This document shows positions 1,317-28,725 of a stretch of DNA of 40,993 nt, in pieces (the stretch's first letter is position 1; every line of letters begins with the position of its first letter). A program made the position numbers and the translations under genes. A model generated the notes under the pieces. It was not told the DNA's origin, searched no databases, and was given only the letters and a program-made list of their open reading frames with translations. Origin of the DNA: Lachnospiraceae bacterium (GTDB lineage: Bacteria > Bacillota > Clostridia > Lachnospirales > Lachnospiraceae); the NCBI GenBank assembly GCA_017411305.1, contig JAFQQI010000039.1:1-40993 (forward strand). Reading direction: 5' to 3'.

Positions 1317-2945
1317 ATGGAGAAATATGCAATGAAAGAAGCAAGTATACAGGCAACAGATAAATTCAGCCTTACCAATCAGGCAATCGAAACAGCGGTT
1401 GAAACCCTTTCGGATTTTTTGCGAAGTTATCAAATAGAGCAAAAGGAAATCTTGCGGACAACGCTTACCCTTGAAGATGCATTGCTCAATTATCAGGAAG
1501 CTTTTGGAAAAAAGGCGGTATGCAGTTTAAAATGCATACGGCGTGTTGGAAGAATCCGCATAGAAATAGCAATCACAGGAGAAAGCTACAATCCTTATGC
1601 AAGGGAGGATGAGGAGGATTTTTCCGGAATTCTTCTGTCCCGCATCGGTATGGTTCCGGTATGGAGTTACCGGAATGGACAAAACATTATTATTCTTACG
1701 CCAAAGAAAAAACAACCCTCGCAAATGGTTTATATTGCGGCGGCTGTAGGGATGGCACTCTCCTTAGGAATGCTGTCGAAGTTGCTGCCACAGAGCGTGC
1801 AGGATTTGATATGCAGCGGAATTTTAATTCCGGTATTTGATACTTTTTTGGGGCTTCTGAATGCAGTTGCAGGGATGATGATATTTTGCTCTGTTGTGTG
1901 GGGAATATGCGGCATTGGTGATATGGCAACCCTTTCTAACCTGGGTAAAAAAATGATAGGGCGTATGCTTTTTATGATGACCTTTCTGCCTACGGTATTT
2001 GCATTATGTATCCTGCCCCTGTTTCAGTTCCGGTATGGCAGCGCGCAAGAAACAGTTGACTTGTCAGGACCTTTTTCCATGATACTTGGTATCATTCCGG
2101 ACAATATGCTTACACCCTTTACGGAGGGAAATTTTCTGCAAATCATATTTATTGCAGCAATGATGGGAGTTGCCCTTTTGGTACTGGGTAATAAGACAAG
2201 TCTGGTGGTAGCTTTCGTTGAACAGGCAAACAGTGTTGTCCAGTTAATACTGGAAGTTATATGTTCAGCGATTTCTGTCATCATATTTGTAAGTCTTTAC
2301 AGCATGGTAATGAATGGCAGTTTTTTTATCTTGCTAAAAGCATATAAGGCACCTGTATTAATATTAATAGGTTGCCTTTTTGCAATCATGGTATATCTGT
2401 GTATTATTTGCATTACCACCAATGTAAAGCCCAATGTGTTTATCAATAAAGTAATGCCTTCCTTTTTGATAGGACTAACAACAGCTTCCTCATCGGCAGC
2501 GATGACAACTACTATGGAAACCTGTGAAAAGCAGCTGGGTATCGATAAAAAGATAGTGAACTTTGGGATTCCTTTGGGACAGATTCTGTTTGGCACCAAT
2601 TCGGTTATGGAGTTTGTTGTCATTGCTTTTTGCATGGCTGAAATATATTCTGTACAGGTTACGCCTGTATGGATTGTAATGGCGATATTTACATCTGTTA
2701 TTTTAACGGTTGCGACGCCGCCGATACCCGGCGGCAGTGTAGCGCTTTGTACAATACTTTTTACGCAGCTCGGTCTGCCTCTTGACGGAATTGCTGTTGC
2801 GGTTGCCATCGATGTAATCGCAGACTTTTTCATAACGGCAGCAGAAATTTTCTGTCTGCAAGCGGAGCTTGTCATCACTTCCGGCAAATTAAAAAGGTTA
2901 GATACGGAAAAACTTTGCAAAGCAAGTTTTACTTTGCACAAGTAA
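1317..2945 (+). CDS. Dicarboxylate/amino acid:cation symporter with N-terminal RsbW-like domain
   Basis: The 542-residue protein has two parts. Residues 1-130 are soluble and resemble a degenerate RsbW-type HATPase: LTLEDALLNYQ (50-60) sits where the N-box belongs, GESYNPY (88-94) where the DxGxxYNP motif belongs, and SYRNGQNIIILTPKK (117-131) matches the last strand. Residues 138-522 are a DAACS/SLC1-type symporter, expected to import glutamate, aspartate or dicarboxylates with cations. It shows the Ser-rich hairpin-1 loop TTASSSAAM (388-396), NFGIPLGQ (415-422) and hairpin-2 PPIPGGSVAL (468-477). Family members are usually about 400-440 residues, so the N-terminal 130 are extra. The second ATG at 1332 has a better ribosome site (GGAG, 9 nt) and may be the true start. 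First gene of an uptake operon with the next two. Confidence 0.85.
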   Translation: MEKYAMKEASIQATDKFSLTNQAIETAVETLSDFLRSYQIEQKEILRTTLTLEDALLNYQEAFGKKAVCSLKCIRRVGRIRIEIAITGESYNPYAREDEEDFSGILLSRIGMVPVWSYRNGQNIIILTPKKKQPSQMVYIAAAVGMALSLGMLSKLLPQSVQDLICSGILIPVFDTFLGLLNAVAGMMIFCSVVWGICGIGDMATLSNLGKKMIGRMLFMMTFLPTVFALCILPLFQFRYGSAQETVDLSGPFSMILGIIPDNMLTPFTEGNFLQIIFIAAMMGVALLVLGNKTSLVVAFVEQANSVVQLILEVICSAISVIIFVSLYSMVMNGSFFILLKAYKAPVLILIGCLFAIMVYLCIICITTNVKPNVFINKVMPSFLIGLTTASSSAAMTTTMETCEKQLGIDKKIVNFGIPLGQILFGTNSVMEFVVIAFCMAEIYSVQVTPVWIVMAIFTSVILTVATPPIPGGSVALCTILFTQLGLPLDGIAVAVAIDVIADFFITAAEIFCLQAELVITSGKLKRLDTEKLCKASFTLHK

Positions 2946-2989
2946 GGAATGCAGAATGAACAGAGGATATCATGCGGAGGTTGTTTTTT

Positions 2990-4537
2990 ATGGGACAGAT
3001 AAGAAAAAAGTTAATCATATTCATGGTTTGCATGTTGGCAATGACAATTGCCGCCTGCAGTAAGAATGAACAGGATGTCACGGCGCAAACGGAAAGCGAA
3101 AAGGTTTATTTATCAGATTTGGAACATGGCACCATCGGTGTGGTTGAAGGAAATGCAACCTCTGTTTTAGTTTCACAGCAGCTGCCAGATGCTACAAAGC
3201 TTTCCTTTAACAGTCCTACGGATATGTCAATGGCATTACTTCAGGGGAAGATAGATGCATTTGCAACGGATGAGTCTTACCTGGTAGGTATGAAGTGGGA
3301 AGGCTATGAAGTGACACGTGTGGAGGAGCCGCTTGGCATCACGGAATATGGAATTGTATTTCCAAAAGGGGAAAGAAGTCAAAAATACCGGAAGGAAATC
3401 AATTCCTTCCTTATCAAAAGTCGTGAGGATGGAAGCTTAGAAAAACTGGAGGAAAAATGGTTTTCGGGCAAGGAACCGACGGAATTTCTTGATGCTTCAG
3501 CTTTGCAGCCTGAGAACGGAACATTGATTGTAGGAACCTGTTCAGCAGCCAAACCCTTTGTGTATATCAAGAACGGAAAACTTGCCGGCTTTGATATTGA
3601 ATTTCTCATTTTGTTTGCTCGGGAATACGGATATGCATTGGATTTCCGTGATTCGGATTTTACAGGAGCAATCAGTGGTGTGCAACAGAAGTATGATATG
3701 GCAACAGCCGGCTTTACAATTACGGAGGAGAGAAAGGAAAGCGTGGATTTCTCTGATGTATATACGGCTGCAGATTTGATTTATATTGTAAATAGCACTC
3801 GGGAAAATGAAGGGGTATGGAATTCACTCATTACCGGCTTTGATAAGACCTTTATCAGAGAGAATAGATGGAAGTTGATTGCAGAGGGGGTTGGTATCAC
3901 ATTACTGATTAGCATATGCGCCACTGTGCTGGGAACGGCAATCGGATTTGGATTATATATGTTAAGGCGTTCACAGATAGGTCTTGTAGTTAAGATTACC
4001 GGTTTGGCAGCAGGCATTTATTCAAGAATTATAGCAGGGACACCCACAGTCGTTATTCTTATGATTTTGTTCTATGTTGTGTTCGGCAAGGTGGATATCA
4101 GTGGTGTGATTGTGGCAATTATTACCTTTGCCCTAACCTTTGGAGCTTCAGTATATGAAAATATGGTAGTAAGTGTGGAAGGTGTTGATAAGGGACAGAG
4201 CGAGGCGGCCTATGCGCTTGGTTATAGCAGAAACCGTACCTTTTTCCGTATTGTGCTTCCTCAGTCCATGAGAGCGTTTATGCCGGTTTATTCAGGAGAA
4301 GTCGTTTCACTCATAAAAGGGACAGCAGTGGTAGGCTATATTGCAGTCAATGATTTGACGAAAATGGGTGATATTATCAGAAGCAATACCTATGAGGCTT
4401 TTTTTCCATTGATAGCAACAGCCGTGATTTATTTCATGATTACATGGCTGATGGCTCTGACTCTTGATATAGTAAGGAAAAGGACAGAGCCTAAGCGTCG
4501 CAAAAGAGAACACATATTGAAGGGAGTGGATGTATAA
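2990..4537 (+). CDS. Amino acid ABC transporter: solute-binding lipoprotein fused to permease
   Basis: The product (515 residues from this ATG, which has CGGAGG 9 nt upstream; an ATG at 2972 is an alternative) starts with a lipoprotein-type signal ending IAAC (Cys23). Residues 40-160 match the middle and last part of an SBP_bac_3 domain ([32 protein letters not shown]). Residues 176-268 match its beginning ([34 protein letters not shown]). The order is therefore circularly permuted. Residues 295-495 are a HisM/GlnP-type permease with the EAA loop [21 protein letters not shown]-like segment at 405-425. Function: capture and import of a polar amino acid, powered by the ATPase encoded next (stop and start overlap as TAATG). 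Confidence 0.85.
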
Positions 4538-5634
4538 TGATTGCCGTAAAGAATTTGAGAAAAGAATATCCGAACATTACTCCCCTTAAGGATGTAACGG
4601 TTACCATTAACGGCGGAGATGTGATTTCAATTATCGGTCCATCGGGAACCGGTAAATCGACCTTAATCCGTTGCCTGAATATGTTAGAGCAGCCTACATC
4701 CGGGCAGATATTTTGGGGTGATGTTTGTATTACGGATAAAAAGTGCAATATCAATAAAATCCGGGAAAAAATGGGAATGGTATTCCAATCCTTTAATCTG
4801 TTTAATCATATGACAGTAATTGAGAATCTGATGGCAGCACCCATGGAGCTTCGAGGTGTTGGGAAACAGGAGGCTTATGATAAGGCAATGGAATTGCTTA
4901 GGACAGTGGGGCTGGCAGATAAGGCACTGAATTACCCGGACGAGCTTTCCGGTGGGCAAAAGCAACGTGTTGCCATTGCAAGGGCATTGGCAATGGAACC
5001 GGAAGTGATTCTTTTTGATGAGCCTACAAGCGCATTAGACCCTACGATGGTGGGAGAGGTCGAAGCGGTAATTCGTGATTTGGCAAGAAGAGGTATGACC
5101 ATGATGATTGTAACCCACGAGATGAGGTTTGCCAGGGAAGTTGCCAACAGGGTGTTTTATATGGATGAAGGAGGAATCTATGAGGAGGGAACTCCGGAAG
5201 AGATTTTTGAACATCCGCAAAAAGAAAGGACTATACGCTTTATACGTCAGCTGAAGGTGTTTGAAGAAACAATTACATCAAAGGATTATGATTTTCTTGG
5301 ATTTATTTCCCGGATGGAAGAATTCGGGAGAAAAAGCCGGATGTCACAGAAGATGATTTATCGGTTTCAGGCGTTAATGGAAGAGTTGTGCATCCAAATT
5401 TTGCTGCCGGATCTTGATGATTCGTTTCAGCTTAAGGTGGCAGTGGAATATGCAGATGAACAGGAGGAAAGCTCCATGCAACTGAAGTATACGGGCCGTG
5501 AATATAATCCGCTGGATTCTTCAAAGGAACTATCTCTAAAAATTGCCCGGAATGCGTCCAAAATTATGGAGTATAGCCGGATAGAAGAAGATTTATATAC
5601 CAATTACCTGCGGGTAACGGTATGTGATAAATGA
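4537..5634 (+). CDS. Amino acid ABC transporter ATPase with C-terminal RsbW-like domain
   Basis: Residues 1-240 are a complete GlnQ/HisP-type ATPase: Walker [10 protein letters not shown] (34-42), signature LSGGQ (137-141), Walker B VILFDE (157-162), H-loop His194. It should energise the permease encoded immediately upstream. GlnQ proteins normally end near residue 240; here 125 residues follow. In that tail MEELCIQIL (281-289) lies where the HATPase N-box (E..xN) belongs, but Asn is missing. TGREYNPLD (319-327) matches the DxGxxYNP region without its Asp, and the end (TNYLRVTV) matches the terminal strand. I read it as a degenerate anti-sigma-kinase-like module, shared with the ATPase at 27625-28725. 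Whether it binds ATP is doubtful. Confidence 0.9.
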
Positions 5635-7851: not shown

Positions 7852-7885
7852 AAAAACACACGGTACATTTGTACGGTGTGTTTTT
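7852..7885 (+). terminator. Intrinsic terminator after solute-binding protein
   Basis: A 10-bp perfect stem AAAAACACAC (7852-7861) / GTGTGTTTTT (7876-7885), plus inner GTAC/GTAC pairing around an ATTT loop, ends in a T-run. It separates the lipoprotein gene from the alarmone genes. It also argues against a start codon at 7869 for the next gene. Confidence 0.8.
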
Positions 7886-7928
7886 GAAGATTATAAGCAA
7901 AAAACGAAAGAGGCAGAGGAAAGTAATT

Positions 7929-9023: not shown

Positions 9024-9526
9024 TGCCTTCAAAAAGACTGGACGCAGCCCTGCAATTTGCCACAGAAAAACATGCAGGACAAACAAGGATAGGCGGAGCA
9101 CCTTATATCTCTCATCCGGTGGCGGTGGCAAAACTGCTTGGGGAAGCGGGATATGATGAGGAATATCAGATTGCGGGGCTTTTTCATGATTTGCTGGAGG
9201 ATACTGATGCGACTTGTGAAGAAATTGCTGTTTACGGAAGCCCGGAAATTTTGGAGGCGGTGAAGCTTCTGACTAAGAAAAAGTGCTATGTTATGTCGGA
9301 ATATATTGCCGGAATTAAAAACAACAAAATGGCATTTGCGGTAAAGGGAGCGGATCGTCTTCATAATCTGCAGAGTGCATTTTACGCAGATGAAAAATTT
9401 AAACGTAAATATATTAGGGAATCTTTGGAGTGGTACACAGCTTTTGATGAGAGGATTCCTGATGCAATCAAGCAGTTAAAAGCTACTTTGGAAGAGCCTT
9501 TAACAGAGAGTATGGAGGAGTCATAA
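9020..9526 (+). CDS. HD-domain (p)ppGpp hydrolase-like protein
   Basis: The 168-residue protein matches the hydrolase half of SpoT and the small alarmone hydrolases (MESH1 type): AGQTRIGGAPYISHP (19-33), FHDLLEDT (55-62, the HD pair binding Mn) and KGADRLHNL (109-117). It is expected to cleave the 3'-pyrophosphate of (p)ppGpp in the cytosol. ATGA overlap with the synthetase gene implies translational coupling and balanced expression. The next gene begins directly after its stop. The C-terminus is short and acidic. Closely related HD enzymes can act on other nucleotides, so the substrate is inferred from the neighbour. Confidence 0.82.
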   Translation: MMPSKRLDAALQFATEKHAGQTRIGGAPYISHPVAVAKLLGEAGYDEEYQIAGLFHDLLEDTDATCEEIAVYGSPEILEAVKLLTKKKCYVMSEYIAGIKNNKMAFAVKGADRLHNLQSAFYADEKFKRKYIRESLEWYTAFDERIPDAIKQLKATLEEPLTESMEES

Positions 9527-10712: not shown

Positions 10713-11009
10713 ATGACAATTGAAAAGACTCGAAACAACGATGAACTGATAATTACACTGGAAGGACGTCTTGACACCATGACAGCTCCTTCTTTGGAAG
10801 AAGAATTAAAAGCAAGCTTTGATGGCGTTCAGAAACTGATATTGGATTTTAAGGCTCTTGAATATATTTCTTCTGCAGGCCTGCGCGTTCTTCTCATGGC
10901 ACAGAAAACCATGAATAAGCAGGGTGTTATGGTAATCAGAAATGTGAATGAGACTATTGCAGAGGTGTTTGAAATTACAGGATTTGCAGATATGCTTACG
11001 ATTGAATAA
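10713..11009 (+). CDS. STAS-domain anti-sigma-factor antagonist
   Basis: This 98-residue single-domain protein matches the SpoIIAA/RsbV family over its whole length. The conserved loop LDFKALEYISSAGLRVLL (residues 44-61) contains Ser54 at the position of the serine phosphorylated by SpoIIAB/RsbW-type kinases. In known systems the unphosphorylated form binds the kinase, and a PP2C phosphatase reactivates it. Such a phosphatase is encoded next, 25 bp downstream. It is the only STAS gene in the window, while seven HATPase-like modules surround it, so it is the natural shared partner (inference). Strong AAAGGAG ribosome site. Confidence 0.92.
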   Translation: MTIEKTRNNDELIITLEGRLDTMTAPSLEEELKASFDGVQKLILDFKALEYISSAGLRVLLMAQKTMNKQGVMVIRNVNETIAEVFEITGFADMLTIE

Positions 11010-11034
11010 GTGCGAAAAAGAGGAAAAACCAGAT

Positions 11035-13287
11035 ATGAAAAAGAAAAAGAAAATATCCCAATCTTTTCAAAAGTGGTTATCCGTGGTGATTATAATTGCT
11101 TTTTTAGTAACCACGGCATGCCTTTGGGTGATTCAGACAAAGCTCTCTGAGAATAACGCAATTAATCTGCTGGCACTTAATATTTCTGATGTACGTGAGG
11201 ATATCATTGATGCATCAGATGAAAATCTTTTAAAACTGACTTATGAAATTGCAGAGGAAATAAACCAGACGGATAAGGTTACATCAGAATTTCTTGAGCG
11301 ATTGACGGAAAAGTATGATGTGACGGAAATTAATCACATTAATTCTGATGGAATTATAGATGCCAGTACTTATCCGGATTTCCTTGATTATGATATGCGC
11401 TCAGGCGCACAGTCGGGTGAGTTTATGGTGCTGCTTTCAGGAGATAAGGAGTATGTACAGAGTTATCAGCCGGTTTCCTACGACACTTCCATTTCCCGCA
11501 AATATGCTGGTGTGGTTTTAAATGACGGAGGATTTGTGCAGGTAGGATACGGCTCCGAGCGGTTTCAGAAGGATATTGACGAATTTGTAGTAGGGGTTAC
11601 CAGAAACCGTCATGTTGGAGAAGGCGGCAGTGTCATTATTGTAAATGAAGCGTGGAATATTGTCAGTGACAGGCAGGGAAATGAGGGAAAGAATCTGGAA
11701 ACGGTAGGAGTATGGATAGATAAGGACAAAACTCCTGCCGGAGAAGTATTTATCGAAGCAGTATACGGAGAACCCTGCTATTGTATGTATCAGATTTCGG
11801 AAGGGTATCTGGTACTTGCTGTTATGCCTACCGGTGAGGCGGCACTTTCCAGAAATGTTTCAGTAGGTGTGACAACAGCAATGCAGATTCTGGTGTTTGC
11901 CGCATTGTTTGCACTTATTTTCTTTTTAGTAAGACGACTGGTAGTAGATAATATTTATAAGGTAAATGAGTCCCTTTCAGCGATTTCGGAAGGAAGATTG
12001 GATACCACGGTTAATGTCCGCTCTCATGAAGAGTTCAATGCCCTTTCTGATGATATTAATGCTACGGTAAATACTTTAAAACGTTATATTTCCGAGGCGG
12101 AGGCGAGAATTGATGCGGAACTGGCATTTGCAAAGGCAATACAGCATTCTGCACTTCCGTCCGTATTTCCACCTTATCCGAACCGTAAGGAATTTGATAT
12201 CTGGGCAGGAATGTATACTGCCAAAGAAGTGGGCGGCGACTTCTATGATTTCTATTTTGTAGATGAAGATACTTTGGCTTTTCTGGTTGCAGATGTTTCC
12301 GGAAAAGGAATTCCGGCGGCAATGTTTATGATGACAGCCAAAACCTTTATCAAGAGCTTTGCAGAATCGGGAATGAGTGTAGAAGAAGTATTATCCCATG
12401 CCAATGAGAAATTGTGTGAGGGCAATGATGCCAATATGTTTGTAACAGCATGGATGGGACTTTTAAATACAAAAACGGGAGTAGTTTCTTATGCAAATGC
12501 AGGACATAATCCCCCTTTGGTAAAGCATGGGAATGGAACCTTTGCTTACCTAAAATCCAGACCCGGTTTTGTTTTGGCGGGAATGGAAGGTGTCCGCTAC
12601 CGCAAAAATGAAATACAGCTGCTACCGGGTGATACCATCTATCTCTATACGGATGGTGTTACAGAAGCTACGAATCAGGACAATGAACTCTATGGGGAAG
12701 AACGTCTGCTTCATATTATGAATCAAAAAGCAAATCTGTCTTCGAAGGAGCTTTGTGAAGCGGTAAAAGCAGATGTGGATGCTTTTGTCGGTGAAGCACC
12801 CCAGTTTGATGATATTACTATGCTGTGCCTGAATTACTTTTCAACGGATGAAAAAGGAGTAAAGAACAGGGAAGTGAAAAAACTGACCGTAAAGGCTACC
12901 GTGGATAATATTAATGCGGTTACGGATTTTGTCAATGAACAGTTGGAAAGCATGGATTGCCCTATGAAAGTACAGATGCAGATAGATGTGGCAGTTGATG
13001 AAATCTTTGGAAATATTTGTCATTATGCTTACCCTTTAGGAGAGGGAGCGGCAACAATCTGCATGGAAATACAGGAAGAAACGCAGGCGGTTGTAATGAC
13101 CTTTATGGATAACGGAATCCCATACAATCCTTTAGAAAAGGAAGAGCCGGATACCACACTTTCTGCAGAAGAAAGAGAGATAGGAGGCCTTGGCATCTTT
13201 ATTGTAAAAAAGACCATGGATGAGATTTCATATCGGTATGAGAATGAGAAAAATATTCTTACCGTGAAAAAATATATGAAATGCTAA
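11035..13287 (+). CDS. Membrane SpoIIE/RsbU-type phosphatase with HAMP and C-terminal HATPase domain
   Basis: The protein is 750 residues from this ATG; an in-frame ATG at 10948 lies within the STAS gene. In order: membrane helix 13-35; extracytoplasmic sensor region 36-278; helix 280-300; HAMP-like linker about 300-355; PP2C/SpoIIE phosphatase about 385-602 with metal-binding motifs GGDFYD (400-405), DVSGKG (420-425), YTDGVTE (538-544) and FDD (591-593); HATPase 615-750. The HATPase keeps an intact N-box DEIFGNICHYAY (655-666), DNGIPYNP (692-699) and GGLGIF (717-722). It can thus contain both the phosphatase that dephosphorylates a STAS protein and a kinase of the type that phosphorylates it. 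The external domain suggests the balance is set by an extracellular signal. Confidence 0.9.
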   Translation: MKKKKKISQSFQKWLSVVIIIAFLVTTACLWVIQTKLSENNAINLLALNISDVREDIIDASDENLLKLTYEIAEEINQTDKVTSEFLERLTEKYDVTEINHINSDGIIDASTYPDFLDYDMRSGAQSGEFMVLLSGDKEYVQSYQPVSYDTSISRKYAGVVLNDGGFVQVGYGSERFQKDIDEFVVGVTRNRHVGEGGSVIIVNEAWNIVSDRQGNEGKNLETVGVWIDKDKTPAGEVFIEAVYGEPCYCMYQISEGYLVLAVMPTGEAALSRNVSVGVTTAMQILVFAALFALIFFLVRRLVVDNIYKVNESLSAISEGRLDTTVNVRSHEEFNALSDDINATVNTLKRYISEAEARIDAELAFAKAIQHSALPSVFPPYPNRKEFDIWAGMYTAKEVGGDFYDFYFVDEDTLAFLVADVSGKGIPAAMFMMTAKTFIKSFAESGMSVEEVLSHANEKLCEGNDANMFVTAWMGLLNTKTGVVSYANAGHNPPLVKHGNGTFAYLKSRPGFVLAGMEGVRYRKNEIQLLPGDTIYLYTDGVTEATNQDNELYGEERLLHIMNQKANLSSKELCEAVKADVDAFVGEAPQFDDITMLCLNYFSTDEKGVKNREVKKLTVKATVDNINAVTDFVNEQLESMDCPMKVQMQIDVAVDEIFGNICHYAYPLGEGAATICMEIQEETQAVVMTFMDNGIPYNPLEKEEPDTTLSAEEREIGGLGIFIVKKTMDEISYRYENEKNILTVKKYMKC

Positions 13288-13330
13288 TGAACCGATAGGT
13301 AATTGCAACTTGTTTAGAAGGGAGATTATT

Positions 13331-14449: not shown

Positions 14450-14463
14450 TGGGGGGACTTGGT

Positions 14464-16947: not shown

Positions 16948-18201
16948 ATGAGCATTAAAACATATTCATTGGATGAAATCATCCGTTATGCCAGAACACA
17001 TTCAAAATATTATGCCGATTTATACAAAGACATTCCAGAGGATGCGTCCTTTGAGGAGCTGCCCTTGATTAATCAGGACGATTTTTGGGCTCATTGCGAC
17101 CAGGACGGAGGAACGGTGGCAACCGGAAAACAGGCGGACGGACAGATATTCAAAAGCGGCGGAACCACGGGAGATCCGAAGTACTCTTTATATACTGCGC
17201 AGGAGTGGGAAACGCTGTGTGAAGGCTGCGCATCGGTAATGGTCAAAGGAGGACTGCAAAACGGCACTAAAATTGCCAATCTTTTCTATGCAGGCGGTAT
17301 GTATGCCAGCTTCTTATATACCTATAGCATGTTATATTTTGCACCGGCAAAAACAATTATGTACAATCTTTCCGGAAATGTGTCGGTAGAAGAGATTGTA
17401 TCCACAATTTTGAAGCATCAGGTCACCTGCCTTGCCGGGGTACCGTCTATTTTGACCAAAATTGTTTCTTACATTGATGAACATCAGATGACGGGTTTTG
17501 CAGTAGATACCGTCTATTTTGCAGGGGAAACCCTGTATATGGACCAAAGAGAAAAAATCTCCAGGACCTTTGGAAGAGAGATTTCCTTCCGTTCCTGTTT
17601 TTATGCATCCAATGACGGAGGTCCTATCGGATATTTTACAAAGGATTGCGGGTTTAACGAGCACAGAGTGATGTCAGAGTTATGTAAACTGGAGCTGATT
17701 GATGCTGATACCGGTGAGATTATCACAGAGCCGAACAGACCCGGCGTGATTTATATTACATCACTTTTTAAAACCTTAATCCCCATGATCCGTTACCCTG
17801 CCGGTGATATGGGAGAATATGTGGAGCCGGAAGGGAATGTGGACCGTAAATTCAGAATTTTGGGAAGAAGCAATGTAGCTGCCAGAGCCGGTTATGTGAC
17901 CTTATATCCCCAGGATGTGGGAGAAATTTTGAACAAGTGCGGTATTGAATATTATGCCTATCAGATTATCGTAACACATAACGTGCGGGATAAATTTACA
18001 TTTAAAATTGCGGCAAAACAGGAAAACGGTCAGAATACAGAAAAGTTTTTGGAGATGCTGTATCGGGAACGCAGCCTGATGCAGGATGCCCTAAACGACG
18101 GTACACTGGATGAACCTGAAGTGGAGTGGTGTAAGGCAACAGACCTTGAATACAATGAAAGAACGGGTAAGCTGAAGATTATTATTGATAAGAGAAAGTA
18201 A
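16948..18201 (+). CDS. PaaK-like AMP-forming carboxylate ligase
   Basis: The 417-residue protein is an adenylate-forming enzyme of the phenylacetate-CoA ligase type. Motifs: KSGGTTGDPKYS (69-80, phosphate loop), a YFAGETLYM segment corresponding to the GE motif, FYASNDGGPIGY for the aromatic/adenine site, YPAGDMGEYV for the ribose-binding Asp, and ILGRSN at the hinge. It resembles the C-terminal half of the upstream LuxC fusion, so the operon holds two ligases plus LuxE. It would activate a carboxylic acid as acyl-adenylate for CoA, a protein thiol or an amine. No carrier protein is encoded nearby. Spacing to neighbours is 17-18 bp, with a GGGAGAGGG ribosome site. Confidence 0.82.
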   Translation: MSIKTYSLDEIIRYARTHSKYYADLYKDIPEDASFEELPLINQDDFWAHCDQDGGTVATGKQADGQIFKSGGTTGDPKYSLYTAQEWETLCEGCASVMVKGGLQNGTKIANLFYAGGMYASFLYTYSMLYFAPAKTIMYNLSGNVSVEEIVSTILKHQVTCLAGVPSILTKIVSYIDEHQMTGFAVDTVYFAGETLYMDQREKISRTFGREISFRSCFYASNDGGPIGYFTKDCGFNEHRVMSELCKLELIDADTGEIITEPNRPGVIYITSLFKTLIPMIRYPAGDMGEYVEPEGNVDRKFRILGRSNVAARAGYVTLYPQDVGEILNKCGIEYYAYQIIVTHNVRDKFTFKIAAKQENGQNTEKFLEMLYRERSLMQDALNDGTLDEPEVEWCKATDLEYNERTGKLKIIIDKRK

Positions 18202-18218: not shown

Positions 18219-19640
18219 ATGGATACAAAGAAAATTGCAACCCTTGAGATATGGAACAATAAGCTTTATGCAGATGCCACACTTGATTTTTTGGATGTGA
18301 TGATAGGAAGACTGGATATTCCCCACTATCAGGCATTTCGATTTGTTGTGGGAGAAATTTTGACTAAAAGAATGGAAAGCGCTTATCCGGACAATAGGGG
18401 ACTAATGTATGTGGATATCTTTTTGAAGGATACTTTTTTTGAGGTTTCCATCAGAGATAAAGGAGTTCCCGGATGGCAGGACTTTTCCTACGATATGGAA
18501 AGTATTGCCAAAAGCAAAAAGGACCTTCGCAATTACATGCTGAACCTTTGCGCAGACGGAGTGGGGATTGAAAAGCTTGGAAAAGACGGCCAAAGAATTT
18601 TTATCCGGTTAAGAACAGTAAATTCCATACAGTTTAAGCGTCCCCAGCCTTATAAAGAAATAGAGGTTCTTGATACCAATATCAGTATCCGTCCCGTTGA
18701 GACCCAGGAGGATATTATTGAAGCCATCCGTTGTATTTACAGCGAATACGGCTATTCTTACAGCTATGAGAAATTGTATTATGTGGATTCCTTTAAGCGT
18801 GCACTGGAAAATGGAGAGTTGATGTCATTTCTGGCTGTTAACGACCACGGACAGACTGCCGGACATTTTGCCCTTTCCTTCTCAGAACAATTCCGTAACA
18901 TGCCGGAAATTGCATCTACGGTAATACGAAGAGAGTTTCGTGGACTTGGTCTTATTGACAGGTTTATTGAGTACTGTCTGGAAGTAGCAAAGAAACATAA
19001 TTTCAGGGCAGTGATGTCTCAACCGGTTGCATTTCATCCCAAGGCGCAGAAGGCCGTGTTAAAAGCAGGATTTACAGCAAGCTCTTTATTACTTTCTTAT
19101 ATCAGCTCCGGTTTGGAGAGTGAATACAATGAAAACAAAGAAAGACTGGATGTATGTGCCTGTGTGAAAATAATTGATGCAACAGCATACAGCAAAATCT
19201 ATCCGCCTAAGGAACTGACAGGGCTTTTGAAAAAAATCTATGACAAACTGGACTGGAACTATGAATTCAGTGATGAGAAGAAATTAAGCGACAGTACGCA
19301 AATCAGTGTGGAAAATCAGGAACAGCTCAAGGCTACCAAAATGGTTCTTCATGAAGCTGCAGAGGACTTTGAAGAGGTGCTGCGGGAAGCTGTTCAAAAT
19401 ACAATCAAAAACAAAAATGAAATGATTGAGCTGGTCATTTGTTTGAATTCTCCAAGTGCCGAGTATGGATATCAGGTAGCAAGAAGAAACGGCTTGGCAG
19501 TTTCGGGAGTGATTCCGGGCAGTGAAAGCGGCGACTACCTGATTATGCAGATGCTGGTTGGAGATAAACTGAAATACGATAAGCTGGTGCTTGCCGGTGA
19601 ATTCGAAGAATTAAAAGAAGATATCCTTAAATTATCATAA
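18219..19640 (+). CDS. GNAT acetyltransferase with N-terminal RsbW-like domain
   Basis: The 473-residue protein has three parts. Residues 1-135 resemble an RsbW-type HATPase: VVGEILTKRMESAYP (43-57) aligns with the N-box but has Lys where Asn is needed. VSIRDKGVPGW (76-86) matches the D-x-G motif and ends in strand RIFIRLR (126-132). Residues 155-300 are a GNAT domain with the acetyl-CoA motif RREFRGLGLIDRF (237-249) and the family's VAFHPKAQKAVLKAGF tail. Residues 325-473 may be a second GNAT-like half. It may acetylate or acylate a product of the operon, and the N-terminal module may tether it to the STAS regulator (inference). Spacing to neighbours is 10-17 bp. Confidence 0.75.
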   Translation: MDTKKIATLEIWNNKLYADATLDFLDVMIGRLDIPHYQAFRFVVGEILTKRMESAYPDNRGLMYVDIFLKDTFFEVSIRDKGVPGWQDFSYDMESIAKSKKDLRNYMLNLCADGVGIEKLGKDGQRIFIRLRTVNSIQFKRPQPYKEIEVLDTNISIRPVETQEDIIEAIRCIYSEYGYSYSYEKLYYVDSFKRALENGELMSFLAVNDHGQTAGHFALSFSEQFRNMPEIASTVIRREFRGLGLIDRFIEYCLEVAKKHNFRAVMSQPVAFHPKAQKAVLKAGFTASSLLLSYISSGLESEYNENKERLDVCACVKIIDATAYSKIYPPKELTGLLKKIYDKLDWNYEFSDEKKLSDSTQISVENQEQLKATKMVLHEAAEDFEEVLREAVQNTIKNKNEMIELVICLNSPSAEYGYQVARRNGLAVSGVIPGSESGDYLIMQMLVGDKLKYDKLVLAGEFEELKEDILKLS

Positions 19641-19650: not shown

Positions 19651-20946
19651 ATGGTGGACAAAACAAGAATGCTCTTTGATGAATTGGGACGGATGCAGAT
19701 ACTGGACGGTATGCGTTATTATAAGAAAACGCAGGAAGAGAATAATATGCCCCGTTTTGTGATTACCATGACAGAGAAAATTGACAGGGAATGTCTGCAG
19801 TCTGCAGCCATAACTGCTATGCAGAGATTCTGCGTACAACGTTTGGTAGTAGAACCGAATGAGAGCCGTTTCTATTTAAAACAGAATTTGCAGGAGCCGG
19901 TGGTTCATTTGGACAACGGAGAGAGACATGTCGTGTGTAATGAGAAAAACAGAGGACATATGACATGGATAGGGTATCATGAATGCGATATTATTGTTGA
20001 TTTTTTTCATGGTGTTTCGGATGGTATTGGTATGATACCCTTTTTGATGCTACTGTTAACTTCTTATTGCCAAAAAAAGTACAGTAGTCAAACATGCGAA
20101 AAGGCAAATCTGCAGTCCGGTTGGAATGAAAATGAATATACTGAGGCTATCCGCTTCTTACCGGAAGAGCTTGTTGTTACAGAGCATTCTTACCGGTGGA
20201 AAAGTGCTTTGCAGTTAAAAGGCAGGCAGATGGAGCTAAAGAGCGGTTGTCACCATTATGTATTATCTGTGGATGGAGATGCCTTTGATGATTATGTAAC
20301 AAGAAATGGTTCCTGCCGTTCGGCAGTATTTGCCATGTTTATGAATCAGGCAATAGCAGGCATACATAAAGTGGATACAAAACCCATAGTAGCAGCTATG
20401 GCAGTCAACGCAAGGAAGGCTTACGGAGCAGAAGAGACCCTACAGAGTTGTGTGGCCACGATACCGCTATGGTATGACAGGGAAATAGCAGAACTTTCCG
20501 TATCAGAAAGATTAAAAAAGGGCAGAGCAATGGTGTCGGAAGGCATAAAGAAGGAATGTGTTCTTTGGGGAGCACAAAAAAACCGGCTGCTCAATCAGAA
20601 TTTGGAAGCAAATTATCCTACTCTTGAAGAAAAGAGGGCGCATTGCAGAAGGCTCACGGATAGCAGTAGCGGCAGATACACTTATGGACTAAGTTATTTG
20701 GGAAATATCAGTTTTGGGGAGTTTGCAGATGCTTACGTGAGAGATGTAAGAGTGATGCTCTGTGCAAATACCGTTCCGCTTATTTTGGAAATTTTAAAAT
20801 GGAAGGGAAAGTATACGATTAGTTATAACACCCATCTGGAAGAGGATAGATATTTGAAGGAATTGATAGCAATGTTTCAGGAGGCGGGCATTACCTGCAA
20901 TTGCATAAAGCATGAGATGTTTGAAGAGGCATTGGCAGATTTTTGA
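19651..20946 (+). CDS. Condensation-type acyltransferase (HxxxDG superfamily)
   Basis: The 431-residue protein carries FFHGVSDGIGMIPF (118-131). This is the HxxxDG catalytic motif (His120, Asp124, Gly125) of the CoA-dependent acyltransferase superfamily, which includes NRPS condensation domains, alcohol acetyltransferases and PapA5. It has two-lobed length and no carrier or adenylation domain. It could join an acyl-CoA or acyl thioester to an alcohol or amine produced by the LuxCE-like steps. The ATG at 19651 has a poor ribosome site; ATG 19669 has GGTGG 10 nt upstream and is a possible start. The gap to the preceding gene is 10 bp. Confidence 0.68.
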   Translation: MVDKTRMLFDELGRMQILDGMRYYKKTQEENNMPRFVITMTEKIDRECLQSAAITAMQRFCVQRLVVEPNESRFYLKQNLQEPVVHLDNGERHVVCNEKNRGHMTWIGYHECDIIVDFFHGVSDGIGMIPFLMLLLTSYCQKKYSSQTCEKANLQSGWNENEYTEAIRFLPEELVVTEHSYRWKSALQLKGRQMELKSGCHHYVLSVDGDAFDDYVTRNGSCRSAVFAMFMNQAIAGIHKVDTKPIVAAMAVNARKAYGAEETLQSCVATIPLWYDREIAELSVSERLKKGRAMVSEGIKKECVLWGAQKNRLLNQNLEANYPTLEEKRAHCRRLTDSSSGRYTYGLSYLGNISFGEFADAYVRDVRVMLCANTVPLILEILKWKGKYTISYNTHLEEDRYLKELIAMFQEAGITCNCIKHEMFEEALADF

Positions 20947-20994: not shown

Positions 20995-21981
20995 ATGAAT
21001 GAAGAATCTGCAAAAATCCGCGAAATGCTGCTAAAATGTTACGGAGTTGATATAGAAGAGGCGAAATGCCATTTTTCTACACAGAATTATGCCTATATAT
21101 TTCCAAATCATCCGTATATGATCCGTGTCAGTAAGATGCCCAAAAAGACAAGAAAAGAGATACTCAGTGAGTTAATGTGGGTAGATGATTTGAAACAATT
21201 CAAACAGACAATTTGTGAACCCAGCGTTTCCATTGGCGGGAAAATTTTGGAAGAATTTGAGATTGACGGTGTGACATATCGGGCAAGTATGTTCCGAACG
21301 GCACGGGGGAACGTACAGGCATCAACGGAAATGACGCCGATGTTTTTTATTTGCGTGGGAGAATTGCTGGGTATTATTCATCATGTCAGTACGGATGAAC
21401 GCGAAAACGGGATGAAATTCCAGAGAAAAGAGCTGAAGGATATTTTTTCACATCAGAAAGAAAAGGTGTGGGAAAAATTGAAACCGGAGATTCAAGGCAG
21501 GATTACAGCCATTGAAACGCAGGTCAATTCATTGCCACAAGATATTGGAATTTATGGCCTTTGCCACGGGGATTTCCAGGCCAATAATTTTTTTGTAGAG
21601 GCCAATAATGTCTGGCTGTTTGACTTTGACGGATGTTGCTATGCCAATTATCTGTATGATGTGGCAAGCTTTATTTTATCCTGTTTTCTTGGGGGATTCG
21701 GTGGCGGTAAGGAGTGCAGTAAGGTCATAGAGGAGATTTTGCACTATTTAAAAATAGGCTATGAATTAAATCATAAATGTACAGATGAGTACTGGGAACA
21801 ATTACCGTTATTCATAAGCTATCGTGCGGCATATACGGCACTGATGCTGGCAGAAATAGATACCTGTGGTGTGGTTTCCAGCCTGGATGAGATTAAAGAA
21901 TTCTTTTCCTTTATTCTTCTTCAGGATAGCATTTATGAGGGGATTACAAAAGTAATCAGTGAGGGAAAGAGCCGACTATGA
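20995..21981 (+). CDS. APH/choline-kinase-like phosphotransferase
   Basis: The 328-residue protein has the aminoglycoside-phosphotransferase fold signature: LCHGDFQANNFFV (189-201, catalytic loop with Asp193 and Asn198) and VWLFDFDGCCY (206-216, metal-binding Asp). The N-lobe includes YMIRVSK with the ATP-binding Lys. Family members phosphorylate aminoglycosides, choline, homoserine or protein serines; SrkA-type and CotS-type relatives are equally possible. In this operon it may phosphorylate a pathway intermediate or act in self-protection. It overlaps the following MATE gene by 4 bp (ATGA). Confidence 0.75.
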   Translation: MNEESAKIREMLLKCYGVDIEEAKCHFSTQNYAYIFPNHPYMIRVSKMPKKTRKEILSELMWVDDLKQFKQTICEPSVSIGGKILEEFEIDGVTYRASMFRTARGNVQASTEMTPMFFICVGELLGIIHHVSTDERENGMKFQRKELKDIFSHQKEKVWEKLKPEIQGRITAIETQVNSLPQDIGIYGLCHGDFQANNFFVEANNVWLFDFDGCCYANYLYDVASFILSCFLGGFGGGKECSKVIEEILHYLKIGYELNHKCTDEYWEQLPLFISYRAAYTALMLAEIDTCGVVSSLDEIKEFFSFILLQDSIYEGITKVISEGKSRL

Positions 21982-23732
21982 GAAACAGTTATCTGATAAG
22001 AAAACTCTATTTATCATTTTTAATTGTGTCAATTCTTTCCTCTCTTACTGCTACGGTAGGAATACTGATTGATAACATTATAGTAGGAATGTATTTAGGT
22101 GATGTTTCATTAGGAGCTATGGGGATTGTGGGACCTATCAGTCTTATTTTTTCCGCAATCGGAAATATATGTTCCGGAGGCGGAACGGCCAGAGCAGCGC
22201 AGGCATTGGGAAAAGGTGATGGGGAAGGCTTGTACCGGATTTTTACGGTTACTGTGCTGTTTGCTGCAGTAGGGGGATTTCTCATTACTATTTTGGGACT
22301 ACTGTTCACTCCGCAGCTGGCGGAGCTTCTTGGGGCAAAAGGAGAATTACTTGAACCATCCATTCAGTATTTGCGGGGCTACTTTCTGGGGGCTGTTCCC
22401 ACAATTATGCTTACGGCACTTTCCGGCTTTGTAAAGATAGACGGTTCGCCAAGATTGCCGCTTATATGCATTATAGTAATGTCTTCGACAAATATTATTC
22501 TGGATTTTTTGATGATTCATGCATTTCATCTCGGAATGTTCGGTATGGCACTTGCAACTACCATCAGTTATTTGTTGGCAGTATTGATTGCCTGCACACA
22601 TTTTTTAAAGAAACATTCTACGCTTCGATTGGTAGTGCCAAAGCAAATGCTTGGTGAGTGGATACAGATGGTCACGACAGGTGCACCCACAGCAATCAGC
22701 AGGGTTTGTGATACCGTAAAGGTCATGGTGCTGAATCATATGCTGGTGCTGTTTGTGGGAGTAGGTGCTGTTACCGCGTTAAGCATAAGGACACAGGCAT
22801 ATAGCTTTTTTGGTGCATTTATGATAGGAATTGCCCAGGCGTCTGTGCCGTTAACCGGATTATTCTACGGAGAAGAAGATATAACAGCGTTAAAGGATAC
22901 CTTAAAAAATACATTAAAAATCGGACTTTTTATCAATGTAATATTGGCAGTGCTGCTGTTTCTGACAGCACCGCTTTTCGTGGGACTTATGGGCGTTTCC
23001 GAGCCGGAAACAAAAAAGATGGCAGTAAATGCGGTCAGGCTGTTTGCAATCGGCGTGCCTTTTGCACTGATTAATTACATATTTATGAGCTTTTATCAGA
23101 GTACCAAAAGAATAGCCATGGCAACCATGATTTGTGTGTTACAGTCTTTAGCATATGTGCTATTTGTTGCGGTGCTTTTAATTGGAACACTTAAGGAAAA
23201 TGGGGTATGGATTGCATTTTTGGCAGCAGAAATATTAACAATTATCACGACAATAGCAGTAATAGCTTATCACTGCAGAAAAATTCCGGAAAAGATTACA
23301 GATATTATGTTGCTAAAAGAAGACTTTGGAAGCAGAGAAGAAGATCGATTGGAAATTTCCGTAGGAAATGATATGGAGGAACTGGTGAATATCTCTGCAG
23401 GTATTCATAAGTTCGGTGAAGGGCGCAACATCAGTCAAAAGCTTCTTAAGGAGTTGGCGCTGTGCATTGAAGAAATCGGTGGTAATGTGATACATCATGC
23501 TTTCCGCCCGGGTGAGAAAAAGTGGTTTGATATCATGATTCTGGATAAAAAGGATTTACTTATTGTACGTCTTCGTGATAATGGAGCCGCTTTTAATCCG
23601 GTTAATTACTGCGATGACTATGATATGAAGAAAGAAAAATATGGACTACAGTTAATCCGCAGTATGGCAGACGACATGAAGTATAAGAGAGCTCTGGAAA
23701 TGAATAATATCATGATTACTTTTAAGAAATAA
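21978..23732 (+). CDS. MATE efflux transporter with intact C-terminal HATPase domain
   Basis: Residues 1-435 are a 12-helix MATE exporter (early IDNIIVGMYLG at 31-41; second-half repeat from about 230). MATE proteins usually end near 450 residues. Residues 455-584 are an RsbW/SpoIIAB-type HATPase with well-kept motifs: N-box ALCIEEIGGNVIHHAF (494-509), RDNGAAFNP (533-541), YGLQLIRSMADDM (555-567) and last strand NNIMITFKK. The domain should be cytosolic and ATP-binding. It could phosphorylate or bind the STAS protein encoded at 10713, linking export to the partner switch (inference). It probably exports the operon's product or a toxic by-product. Start and stop overlap with the kinase gene upstream. 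Confidence 0.88.
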   Translation: MRNSYLIRKLYLSFLIVSILSSLTATVGILIDNIIVGMYLGDVSLGAMGIVGPISLIFSAIGNICSGGGTARAAQALGKGDGEGLYRIFTVTVLFAAVGGFLITILGLLFTPQLAELLGAKGELLEPSIQYLRGYFLGAVPTIMLTALSGFVKIDGSPRLPLICIIVMSSTNIILDFLMIHAFHLGMFGMALATTISYLLAVLIACTHFLKKHSTLRLVVPKQMLGEWIQMVTTGAPTAISRVCDTVKVMVLNHMLVLFVGVGAVTALSIRTQAYSFFGAFMIGIAQASVPLTGLFYGEEDITALKDTLKNTLKIGLFINVILAVLLFLTAPLFVGLMGVSEPETKKMAVNAVRLFAIGVPFALINYIFMSFYQSTKRIAMATMICVLQSLAYVLFVAVLLIGTLKENGVWIAFLAAEILTIITTIAVIAYHCRKIPEKITDIMLLKEDFGSREEDRLEISVGNDMEELVNISAGIHKFGEGRNISQKLLKELALCIEEIGGNVIHHAFRPGEKKWFDIMILDKKDLLIVRLRDNGAAFNPVNYCDDYDMKKEKYGLQLIRSMADDMKYKRALEMNNIMITFKK

Positions 23733-23742
23733 AGGAGAAGAC

Positions 23743-25464
23743 ATGGACAATAGATATAAGTATAGGCATAATCCAATTGTAAAGAAAATCTTTATGACAA
23801 TGTTAATTCCAACTATTTTTATGAATTTGACAACAGCGATTGCTTCCATGGCGGATGCAATTATTATTGGACAGTATCTGGATGATGCCTCCTTATCGGT
23901 AGTAACTTTTGCAATGCCTATTTTTTTGATTATTAATGTTTTTTCTGCTCTGTTTGCAGTGGGCGGATGTATATCCATGAGTATAGATGCAGGAAAGGGC
24001 GATAAAGAGGAAGCCAATAAAGCATTCAGCATTTCAATAGAACTGCTTTTAACTATGGGGGTACTGTTATTACTTGCCGGTTTATTTTTCAGTCGTACCA
24101 TTACAGGTTGGCTGGGGGCAGAAGAAGATATATTTGAATCCGTGGAACTGTACTCCCGGATTATTCTGATGGGCGGACCATTTTTTGTACTGAATACAGG
24201 ACTTGCATTTTTTGTGAGAAATGACGGAAGACCAACACTGTCCATGGTGGGAATGTTTGCTTCTATTTTTGTAGATATCACTTTGAATTTTGTGTTTGTG
24301 GGAGTGATGAAAATCGGAGTGGCCGGTGCGGCTTATTCCACAGTAATAGGAAGCATTGTTAGTGTATTCATTGTATGTACTCATTTCTTTCATGCGAAAA
24401 ACACATTGAAATTCTGTTTTGCTTTTGACAGCATGGCAATAAGGATTATGAAAAACGGCGGAAGTACAGCACTTCAGTTTATTTACCAGTTTGTTACGGT
24501 ACTTATTATGAATCATTTCCTCGCAAATTTGTCAGGAACAGGTGGTGTAGTAATTTATACAGTGGTAATTAACCTTTCTACAGTAGCCCTTTCGTTGTTC
24601 GAAGGAATCAGCCAGACCATACAGCCGATGGTCAGCAATTATTTTGGAGAAAAAAGTTATCGGAAAATGAAGGAAGTGCTGCGACTTGCATTTATTACTA
24701 CTCTTGTGATATGCGGAAGTATTATGATACTTCTTGAGGCAATGCCGCAGTGGATTCCCATGATTTTTGGAATTGACGATGCAGCATTGATGGCAAATTC
24801 TGTGATTGCAGTACGCATTTATACGGCAGGTATGATTATCACAACTGTAAATGTAGTGATTAGCTATTATCTGCAGTCTATTGAGCAGACCTTAATGTCA
24901 GCTGTCATAGTCAGCCTACGCAATTTTGTATTGCTGTTATGTGCAGTGTTTGTTCTCGGTAAACTGTTCGGAATGAATGGGATATGGGCAGCTTATCCGG
25001 TAGCAGAGGTTCTTACATTTTTGGTTGGCATTGGAATGATTTGTGCTAAGCAGAAGAAACTGGAAAAGACCGGAAAGCATATAGATATTTTTTTGTTGGA
25101 TGAAACGGTTGAAGGGAACACGGAATGTTATACTTATGATAGCATGAACGATACTTTCCCTGATTTTTGTGATATCGTACTTCAATCTTTGGCAAAGAGA
25201 GGGGATTGCTGCGGAGAAATGGCACAGGATGCTGAAAACTATCTGTTACAGCTTGGAAAGGGAATCAAAAAGAAAAAGGGAAATTATATTGAAATGGAAG
25301 TAAATGGTCTTGAAAAAACCATCATTATCAGAGATAATTTGAATCATGCAGATATTCCTGTAAATATTCAGGATACGATAAAAAGTGATAGTAATTCGGA
25401 TTATGGTCCTGTGCTTGGATGGAACAGATTGATCCGTAAGGGAATAAAAAGCGAAGAGGTGTAA
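23743..25464 (+). CDS. MATE efflux transporter with degenerate, shortened HATPase-like tail
   Basis: Residues 1-435 form a second MATE exporter, a distant paralogue of the preceding gene (MADAIIIGQYLDD at 36-48; two six-helix halves). Residues 455-573 follow the HATPase layout of its neighbour but are eroded: the N-box region reads AQDAENYLLQLGKG without the Asn/His set, IIIRDNLNHADIPV (527-540) replaces DxG, and LGWNRLIRKGI (558-568) replaces the G2 box. The protein stops about 17 residues earlier than the neighbour's domain would. The missing last strand may be recognisable in another frame at 25484-25558. Gap to the upstream gene is 10 bp, with an AAAGGAG ribosome site. The two exporters may work as a pair. 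Confidence 0.85.
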   Translation: MDNRYKYRHNPIVKKIFMTMLIPTIFMNLTTAIASMADAIIIGQYLDDASLSVVTFAMPIFLIINVFSALFAVGGCISMSIDAGKGDKEEANKAFSISIELLLTMGVLLLLAGLFFSRTITGWLGAEEDIFESVELYSRIILMGGPFFVLNTGLAFFVRNDGRPTLSMVGMFASIFVDITLNFVFVGVMKIGVAGAAYSTVIGSIVSVFIVCTHFFHAKNTLKFCFAFDSMAIRIMKNGGSTALQFIYQFVTVLIMNHFLANLSGTGGVVIYTVVINLSTVALSLFEGISQTIQPMVSNYFGEKSYRKMKEVLRLAFITTLVICGSIMILLEAMPQWIPMIFGIDDAALMANSVIAVRIYTAGMIITTVNVVISYYLQSIEQTLMSAVIVSLRNFVLLLCAVFVLGKLFGMNGIWAAYPVAEVLTFLVGIGMICAKQKKLEKTGKHIDIFLLDETVEGNTECYTYDSMNDTFPDFCDIVLQSLAKRGDCCGEMAQDAENYLLQLGKGIKKKKGNYIEMEVNGLEKTIIIRDNLNHADIPVNIQDTIKSDSNSDYGPVLGWNRLIRKGIKSEEV

Positions 25465-25483
25465 AGGCTGAGGGATTTTGTAT

Positions 25484-25558: not shown

Positions 25559-25585
25559 ATAAAAGAGACAAGAAAGGGAAAAAGG

Positions 25586-27487: not shown

Positions 27488-27584
27488 GGGTAAGGAAATT
27501 GCACGATGAAAGAAGCCTACAATCGGAGCTTGTTATAACCTCATATAAATTGAATATGTTGGATAAGGACAGACTCCATAAAAC

Positions 27585-27626
27585 AACAATAAAAGTGTAG
27601 TTGCATGCAACTACACTTTTATTGTT
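27585..27626. terminator. 42-bp perfect palindrome, bidirectional terminator
   Basis: The sequence AACAATAAAAGTGTAGTTGCA and its exact reverse complement meet at the centre (GCATGC), giving a 21-bp arm with no mismatch. A-runs on one side and T-runs on the other suit termination in both directions between the convergent nucleotidase and ABC ATPase genes. Its right end overlaps the ATPase stop codon (27625-27627). Confidence 0.85.
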
Positions 27627-28725
27627 ACATTTCTATATGAAGCATATTTTTGCCGTTCATGTAAGTATGCGTATAGTGTTTTGTCATGTTTTTTAGAATA
27701 GCAATACTCAAATTATCCTCAATGGAATCGTTTGTTTCGGATTCAAAAGGATTAAATGGAGCATCGGCGCTGGTACAAATGAGGTGAATGCTTTTGTCTG
27801 CTTCGGAGTATTCAATGGAAAGTTCAATATCTACAGTATCAGCATGTTGTTCCATTATTTGATAAATTAGCTCTTCCGTACAAAGCTGCAGACGGTTAGC
27901 AGTTTTATGACCAAGCCCATAGCGGTTTGCAAAATCATAAATACCACCCTGGATGGCCATTAAGTCGAAAATCTTATCTGTTATATGATAGTTGAAAAAC
28001 TTCAGTTTCTTAATAAAGGAAATTGTCTTTTCTCTTTGGGGATTTTCAAAAATCTGTTTCGGTGTACCCTGTTCGTAGATGCCTTTGTCTGCAAAAAACA
28101 GAACCCGGTCTGCAATTTCCTTCGCAAAATTCATTTCATGGGTCACAATTAACATAGTCATTTTCTTTTTGGCAAGGCCACGCATGGTTGCTAAAACCTC
28201 GCCAACCATAGTTGGATCAAGGGCAGATGTGGGTTCGTCAAAAAGCATGATTTTTGGATCCATCATCAGACATCTGGCAATAGCAATTCGTTGCTTTTGT
28301 CCACCGGAAAGATTTGCAGGCATTGCATTTTCTTTTTCCGGTAATCCGACCTGATGTAACAAATTACGAGCTTTTTTCTCAGCATCTTCGCGACTCATTT
28401 TGCGAAGATGTACCGGAGCAAGACACAAATTATCCATTACATTCATGTGGGTAAAAAGATTGAAATTCTGGTATACCATTCCCATGCTGCAACGGATTTT
28501 ATCAATATCAGCATTTTTGGCAGTAATTTCCATTCCATCAATGATAATCTGACCGGCATCAGGAGTTTCTAACAGTTCCATACAGCGTAAGGACACGCTT
28601 TTGCCACATCCGGACCCACCGATAATAGCGATGACTTCGCCTTCTTCTACAGTTAAATTAATATCCTTAAGTACTTCAAGAGAACCGAAGGATTTGCATA
28701 ATCCTTTAATTTCAATTAAACTCAT
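27625..28725 (-). CDS. Amino acid ABC transporter ATPase with C-terminal RsbW-like domain
   Basis: Residues 1-243 are a GlnQ-type ATPase: Walker A GGSGCGKS (36-43, followed by Val rather than Thr), signature LSGGQ (139-143), Walker B IMLFDE (159-164) and H-loop His196. Residues 245-366 are an extra RsbW-like module. TEELIYQIMEQHAD (283-296) keeps the Glu and His of the N-box but has Gln for the ATP-contacting Asn. DAPFNPFE (321-328) stands for the DxGxxYNP motif, and KNMLHIEM is the final strand. The layout equals the ATPase at 4537-5634, so the cluster has two such ATPases. It overlaps its permease gene by 4 bp (ATGA) with an AGGAGG site. Confidence 0.9.
   Translation of the reverse strand: MSLIEIKGLCKSFGSLEVLKDINLTVEEGEVIAIIGGSGCGKSVSLRCMELLETPDAGQIIIDGMEITAKNADIDKIRCSMGMVYQNFNLFTHMNVMDNLCLAPVHLRKMSREDAEKKARNLLHQVGLPEKENAMPANLSGGQKQRIAIARCLMMDPKIMLFDEPTSALDPTMVGEVLATMRGLAKKKMTMLIVTHEMNFAKEIADRVLFFADKGIYEQGTPKQIFENPQREKTISFIKKLKFFNYHITDKIFDLMAIQGGIYDFANRYGLGHKTANRLQLCTEELIYQIMEQHADTVDIELSIEYSEADKSIHLICTSADAPFNPFESETNDSIEDNLSIAILKNMTKHYTHTYMNGKNMLHIEM

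Follow-up and report, generated by a model that had tools for sequence, protein, structure and literature searches.

The RsbW-like modules carried by transporters in a group of clostridial gene clusters appear, from their ATP-site residues, to be dead kinases; this is what is new here, since partner switching itself is known. An earlier note on the 40,993-nucleotide stretch of Lachnospiraceae DNA analysed here (the window) had described a partner-switching set aimed at transporters, built around one STAS protein and one PP2C phosphatase. The association stood: STAS proteins, PP2C phosphatases and RsbW-like domains occur together across many genera, far beyond chance. The part that did not stand is that the transporter tails act as kinases. 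Comparative genomics strengthens the case for a switch of this kind acting on membrane traffic, and we favour, with moderate confidence, a partner-switching circuit that has transporters and enzymes as its outputs.

The genes of the window that bear on this reading are listed below, with the evidence for each assignment.

1317..2945, + strand: SDF symporter (Na+:dicarboxylate-type) carrying a pseudo-HATPase domain at its N-terminus (about 1317-1721)
2972..4537, + strand: amino-acid-type ABC importer, solute-binding protein and permease in one fusion; partner of ABC1 (Pfam SBP_bac_3, BPD_transp_1)
4537..5634, + strand: ABC1, an ABC importer ATPase with a C-terminal pseudo-HATPase tail (about 5254-5631) (Pfam ABC_tran; active-kinase profile p 3e-6)
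10713..11009, + strand: STAS protein, the presumed switch (Pfam STAS 1.1e-18; alignment to SpoIIAA)
11035..13287, + strand: predicted SpoIIE-type PP2C phosphatase whose C-terminal HATPase (12871-13284), the presumed kinase, is intact (Pfam SpoIIE, PF07228, 1.5e-54; HATPase_c_2 4.8e-20)
13310..14449, + strand: LuxE-type acyl-protein synthetase (Pfam LuxE 5.2e-33)
14449..16929, + strand: LuxC-type acyl-CoA reductase and adenylating domain in one fusion (Pfam LuxC 9.1e-79, AMP-binding 7.9e-10)
16948..18201, + strand: adenylating enzyme, presumably PaaK-like (Pfam AMP-binding 2.5e-7; AMP-binding_C_2 slightly below cut-off)
18219..19640, + strand: GNAT acetyltransferase with a probable N-terminal pseudo-HATPase (about 18219-18623) (Pfam Acetyltransf_1 1.9e-6, HATPase_c_2 0.003; profile p 2e-4)
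19651..20946, + strand: protein without a Pfam family (no match in the Pfam scan), which we label AATase-like for a presumed resemblance to acyltransferase/condensation-type sequences
20995..21981, + strand: APH-type phosphotransferase, an enzyme type joined to STAS at other loci (Pfam APH 1.7e-10)
21978..23732, + strand: MATE1, an exporter with a C-terminal HATPase tail (23340-23729) in which the ATP site is partly retained (Pfam MatE, HATPase_c_2 3.7e-11)
23743..25464, + strand: MATE2, an exporter with a degenerate, shortened tail (about 25063-25461) (Pfam MatE; tail-bearing relatives align over the tail)
27625..28725, - strand: ABC2, a second ABC importer ATPase with a C-terminal pseudo-HATPase tail (about 27625-28005) (Pfam ABC_tran, HATPase_c_2 5.6e-4; profile p 9e-9)
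28722..29390, - strand: permease, partner of the second ABC importer (Pfam BPD_transp_1)

All genes between 1317 and 25464 lie on one strand, with intergenic gaps of at most 166 bases. The run also holds two membrane proteins of the Acyl_transf_3 type, at 5801-6898 (below the Pfam cut-off) and 9527-10606; genes of this type are likewise present at loci L047, L071 and L085. Shortly before the STAS gene, Pfam places a RelA_SpoT-type synthetase (7869-9023) and a separate HD_4 hydrolase (9020-9526). RelA-like or HD4-like genes are also found near STAS or PP2C genes at L049/L050, L074, L140, L157 and L159, and this recurrence makes an alarmone link to the STAS/PP2C switch possible. A 5'-nucleotidase family protein is encoded at 25586-27487 and recurs near such clusters at L054, L075, L088, L112 and L129. 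Further downstream, at 31136-34513, is a MacB/HlyD-type export set with no Pfam HATPase_c_2 match.

The earlier note had counted seven RsbW-like modules, and most of these stand: the extra domains of SpoIIE, MATE1, ABC1, ABC2 and SDF, five of the seven, are SpoIIAB/RsbW-like HATPase modules. The SpoIIE and MATE1 tails exceed the Pfam HATPase_c_2 cut-off. Single-sequence Pfam searches did not detect the ABC1, SDF or MATE2 domains, so profiles were needed; by profile we assigned the ABC1, ABC2 and SDF domains, with one of 2800 decoys outscoring ABC1. Comparison of folds, a check that the earlier note had proposed, identified the SDF domain specifically as a SpoIIAB/RsbW fold. A probable sixth module is the domain at the N-terminus of the GNAT protein. 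The seventh did not hold up: the MATE2 tail itself has no significant profile score and its structural model is poor, and it appears to be degenerate to a point at which HATPase identity is beyond proof from the window sequence.

These modules had also been read as equivalent kinases, each phosphorylating the STAS protein while holding or releasing its carrier. We scored six ATP-site residues (the E and N of the N-box, the D and G of G1, and the G2 glycines) in one alignment of 128 related domains from other loci, with SpoIIAB of the window's own genome as reference. All six are present in 56 of 57 stand-alone, PP2C-fused or STAS-APH-fused copies, as against none of 71 transporter-fused copies (69 distinct, since L048/L089 and L051/L134 are each two copies of one contig with identical tails). 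By class, the site is intact in 37 of 38 stand-alone, 15 of 15 PP2C-fused and 4 of 4 STAS-APH-fused domains, the sole stand-alone exception having gaps at the G1 box. Not one of the 43 MATE, 19 ABC and 9 SDF domains has it intact. The G1 Asp is absent from every ABC and SDF domain in the set (0/19 and 0/9). The stretch between G1 and G2 is also short in these two classes, with a median of 12 residues in ABC and 16 in SDF domains versus 25 in kinase-type copies; for MATE tails the median is 21. Membership of the HATPase_c_2 family and retention of the N-box Glu in 70 of the 71 transporter-fused copies fit a kinase role for every tail, but as none of the 71 has the whole site we regard that role as most improbable. 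Two other residues also persist in the same 71 copies, taken together: 96% have a C-terminal Asn and 82% the Pro that follows G1.

Within the window, the full six-residue site is confined to the SpoIIE tail. MATE1 is intermediate, with N, D, G and one G2 Gly present and the other G2 Gly lost, and the remaining five domains (ABC1, ABC2, SDF, GNAT and MATE2) each lack several of the residues; in ABC1, for example, N is replaced by Q and D by Y. The description of seven equivalent kinases must therefore be abandoned. On this residue pattern, most of the window modules are likely to be incapable of kinase activity, and the transporter tails are better read as dead-kinase receptors. A dead reader suits such a role, since it can hold STAS without phosphorylating it. 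Active HATPase copies thus seem to do the catalysis, and dead ones the reading. The MATE class is less uniform: N, D, G and also the second G2 Gly are retained in 8 of the 43 MATE tails from other loci, and some of these may therefore bind ATP.

Features of the STAS protein and the phosphatase fit a switch of the classical type. Ser54 of the STAS protein aligns with the first Ser of the DSSG loop in SpoIIAA of the same genome; S53 and S54 are invariant in 10 of 10 STAS sequences, and the acceptor motif SS is present in all 15 STAS domains within frames of at least 300 aa. Canonical systems of this kind end on sigma factors, and elsewhere in the genome (C31) there is an apparent SpoIIAA-SpoIIAB-sigma operon, recognized by a HATPase match with the three genes named by eye. 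Hence, the STAS protein could instead feed SpoIIAB/SigF or another sigma factor, the fusions being incidental. The C31 operon, however, has its own SpoIIAA. The earlier note had seen no sigma factor in the window, and Pfam agrees: no sigma family was found among the 30 window proteins scanned, with partial coverage after 35103. In addition, the dead HATPase domains sit on carriers with no known role in transcription. We consider an ordinary sigma-factor circuit very unlikely. A plasmid search with 10713-13287 in 'near' mode gave no match.

Natural fusions tie STAS to HATPase domains and to enzymes. STAS and HATPase share one frame at five loci: a single STAS-APH-HATPase frame is found at L067 and L068 (by Pfam) and at L118 and L135 (by profile), and at L069 the part between the two domains resembles L067 by eye. 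The STAS-APH-HATPase proteins would fit, indirectly, a STAS protein that binds a cognate HATPase and is phosphorylated by it. STAS is fused to APH alone at L052 and, by Pfam, to adenylating enzymes at L071 and L072, to a condensation domain at L073 and to an ABC ATPase at L070. Altogether, 28 of 120 STAS matches lie in frames of at least 300 aa. Parts of an importer can likewise be joined, as at L054 and L055, where binding-protein, permease, ATPase and tail parts occur within single proteins. A MATE-HATPase-HD-CE protein is encoded at L053:10012-12666 (- strand).

We also built a tree of 134 tails, which has few columns and many weak forks and is relied on for the ABC and SDF groupings only. 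All 21 ABC tails form one supported group, and nine of ten SDF domains form another, which the tenth (L110) joins with less support. These groupings fit few acquisitions of the domain by these carriers, followed by retention. Among the tails listed, those of MATE proteins are scattered over several groups, and three of them cluster with kinases on a weak branch.

To see whether the parts go together, we surveyed 200 genomes of the window's family, listed as 200 different genera, and found matches to the tail profile in 55. The STAS subfamily is present in 60 of the 200, comprising 54 of the 55 tail genomes and 6 of the 145 others (Fisher p 9e-41), at a cut (E 5.3e-15) placed at a gap in the list after inspection; at a looser cut of 1e-8 it is found in all 55 tail genomes and in 21 of the 145 without tails. 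Because the sequences used for the STAS profile came from the neighbourhood of tails, the profile describes a tail-associated subfamily rather than STAS proteins in general. PP2C phosphatases at E <= 1e-40, a cut likewise chosen after a first look, are present in 64 genomes (54/55 tail genomes versus 10/145 others; p 3e-37). One tail genome (G014) has neither STAS nor PP2C at these cuts. Across the phylum, 5 of 198 other genomes gave matches at E <= 1e-8; four of these genomes belong to other families. A contig titled Fibrobacter sp. (L109) encodes a STAS protein of the tail-linked subfamily and a PP2C-HATPase; it is perhaps a mislabelled or mixed bin.

Association is looser at the scale of individual loci. 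Among the 76 domain-bearing frames of at least 300 aa, which include PP2C and STAS-APH carriers, a STAS gene is found within 10 kb of 31 and within 20 kb of 37; for the other 39, the contig shows none up to that distance. Many carriers would thus need to be acted on in trans, although contig ends blur this count. Shorter domain-bearing frames (<300 aa) are within 10 kb of STAS in 30 of 40 cases. The earlier note had held that fusions occurring widely with no STAS or PP2C gene nearby would speak against the circuit. The fusions are indeed common and, as counted above, often lack a STAS gene within 20 kb, but 54 of the 55 carrier genomes hold both genes. Moreover, tailed frames of 500-700 aa, selected by length and not each confirmed as MATE, lie within 10 kb of STAS in 17 of 45 cases, compared with 1 of 144 tail-less MATE genes (p 2.5e-11; 22 genomes), the controls being the best-scoring matches listed, a choice that favours strong, typical MATE proteins. 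At the 80 named STAS loci we found a HATPase at 54, a PP2C at 38 and a HATPase fused beyond PP2C alone at 26; the fetched DNA of 23 contains neither HATPase nor PP2C, some of the contigs being short. The ORF caller discards overlapping short genes, and some STAS genes are therefore missing from the architecture lists.

The distances and the tree bear on another explanation, that the tails serve dimerisation or protein stability, or sense small molecules in the manner of other regulatory tails of ABC importers, and that the adjoining STAS circuit controls something else. Half of the carrier frames are distant from STAS, the ABC tails and nearly all SDF domains travel with their own carriers, and the eight MATE tails noted above keep most of the ATP site, all of which would fit such a role. 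It does not account for the near-perfect co-occurrence with one STAS subfamily and PP2C across 200 genomes each listed as a different genus, for use of the domain on three transporter families, or for the joining of HATPase and STAS in one protein. We therefore regard dimerisation or sensor tails as rather unlikely, and return to the partner-switching circuit.

At several loci the neighbours of tailed exporters are genes of adenylate-forming biosynthesis. Four Pfam-scanned loci (L047/L048, L065, L083 and L085) have NRPS genes with a terminal reductase domain in this position, and L047, L051 and L062 have GH3 enzymes, by Pfam. GH3 is enriched in tail genomes, which make up 13 of the 15 genomes that have it among the 200 (p 1e-6). 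In the window, the corresponding position is taken by LuxE, the LuxC-adenylation fusion and the PaaK-like enzyme. Both terminal-reductase NRPS and LuxC reactions yield aldehydes in known cases. We rejected LuxC as a general companion of the tails, as 7 of 22 LuxC genomes are tail genomes, compared with 55 of 200 overall (p 0.62); the LuxE/LuxC pathway thus does not belong to the system in general. The three best LuxC matches (the window, G098:C3 and G125:C5) are in long frames of 831-891 aa, and G098 is a non-tail genome.

From what was computed, namely domain identity, loss or retention of the ATP site, genomic co-occurrence and the natural STAS-HATPase and STAS-enzyme fusions, we infer phosphorylation, binding, the direction of the effect and the coupling of uptake to product synthesis and export. 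In the circuit that we propose, the SpoIIE protein would sense a signal; its PP2C domain would dephosphorylate the STAS protein, and its own kinase domain would phosphorylate it at S54. The receptors, which would bind unphosphorylated STAS only, would be the dead RsbW-like modules of the SDF symporter and the ABC ATPases and the less degenerate ones of the MATE exporters. Docked STAS might raise or lower transport, or gather the carriers at one place; alternatively, it might bring STAS-tagged enzymes to them. The aim would be to couple amino-acid uptake with the making and export of an acyl- or amino-acid-derived product. More tentatively, the modules could form a phosphorylation-gated docking code, in which STAS modules on APH kinases, adenylating enzymes and condensation domains pair with dead RsbW-like modules on exporters and importers. 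One sensor phosphatase-kinase would then assemble or disperse a membrane production line (amino acid in, reactive aldehyde or amide made, product exported). We hold this wider scheme to be possible but doubtful.

Our analysis suggests direct control of membrane traffic and small-molecule production by the switch in gut and rumen bacteria. If so, the best-studied bacterial partner switch would control membrane traffic and natural-product assembly post-translationally, with dead kinases as readers, and would help to tell when clostridia of the gut and rumen produce reactive products and export them. A simple motif distinguishes the active kinase family from the inactive reader copies, and does so in isolates obtainable for experiments. 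Near STAS, Blautia schinkii DSM 10518 (L097) has SDF, ABC and MATE carriers, a PP2C and a stand-alone HATPase; Pseudoflavonifractor capillosus An827 (L099) has a MATE carrier, a PP2C and a HATPase; and Oscillibacter valericigenes An411 (L101) has two ABC carriers and a MATE carrier, with no PP2C in the fetched DNA. We know of no transporter with a dead RsbW copy. A search of the literature, covering titles and abstracts and few subscription papers, found no description of RsbW-like tails on transporters.

The window resembles the SpoIIAA/SpoIIAB/SpoIIE and RsbV/RsbW/RsbU systems in its acceptor-Ser STAS protein, its PP2C, its intact HATPase_c_2 domain and the fold of its SDF domain. It differs from them in its partner domains, dead copies joined to transporters and to one enzyme, and in that no adjoining sigma factor was found. 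Rv1364c of M. tuberculosis belongs to a sigma-F circuit, and the outputs of SiaABCD, HsbRAD, SypAE and BtrUVW are cyclase, anti-sigma, biofilm or secretion proteins. These four systems, like the window, place STAS, PP2C and an RsbW-like kinase outside classic sigma control, and Rv1364c joins RsbU and RsbW domains in one protein (PDB 3ke6), as 11035-13287 joins PP2C and RsbW-type domains. A structure of SiaB-SiaC is available (6kko), and a review that treats BtrUVW gives type III secretion among the outputs of partner switches (PMC8256260). In MlaB/MlaF, the STAS protein MlaB contacts the ABC ATPase domain itself (PMC7367683). The likeness is a STAS protein acting on an ABC transporter, as proposed for the window, whereas the presumed docking site here is an added RsbW-like tail, with kinase and phosphatase adjoining.
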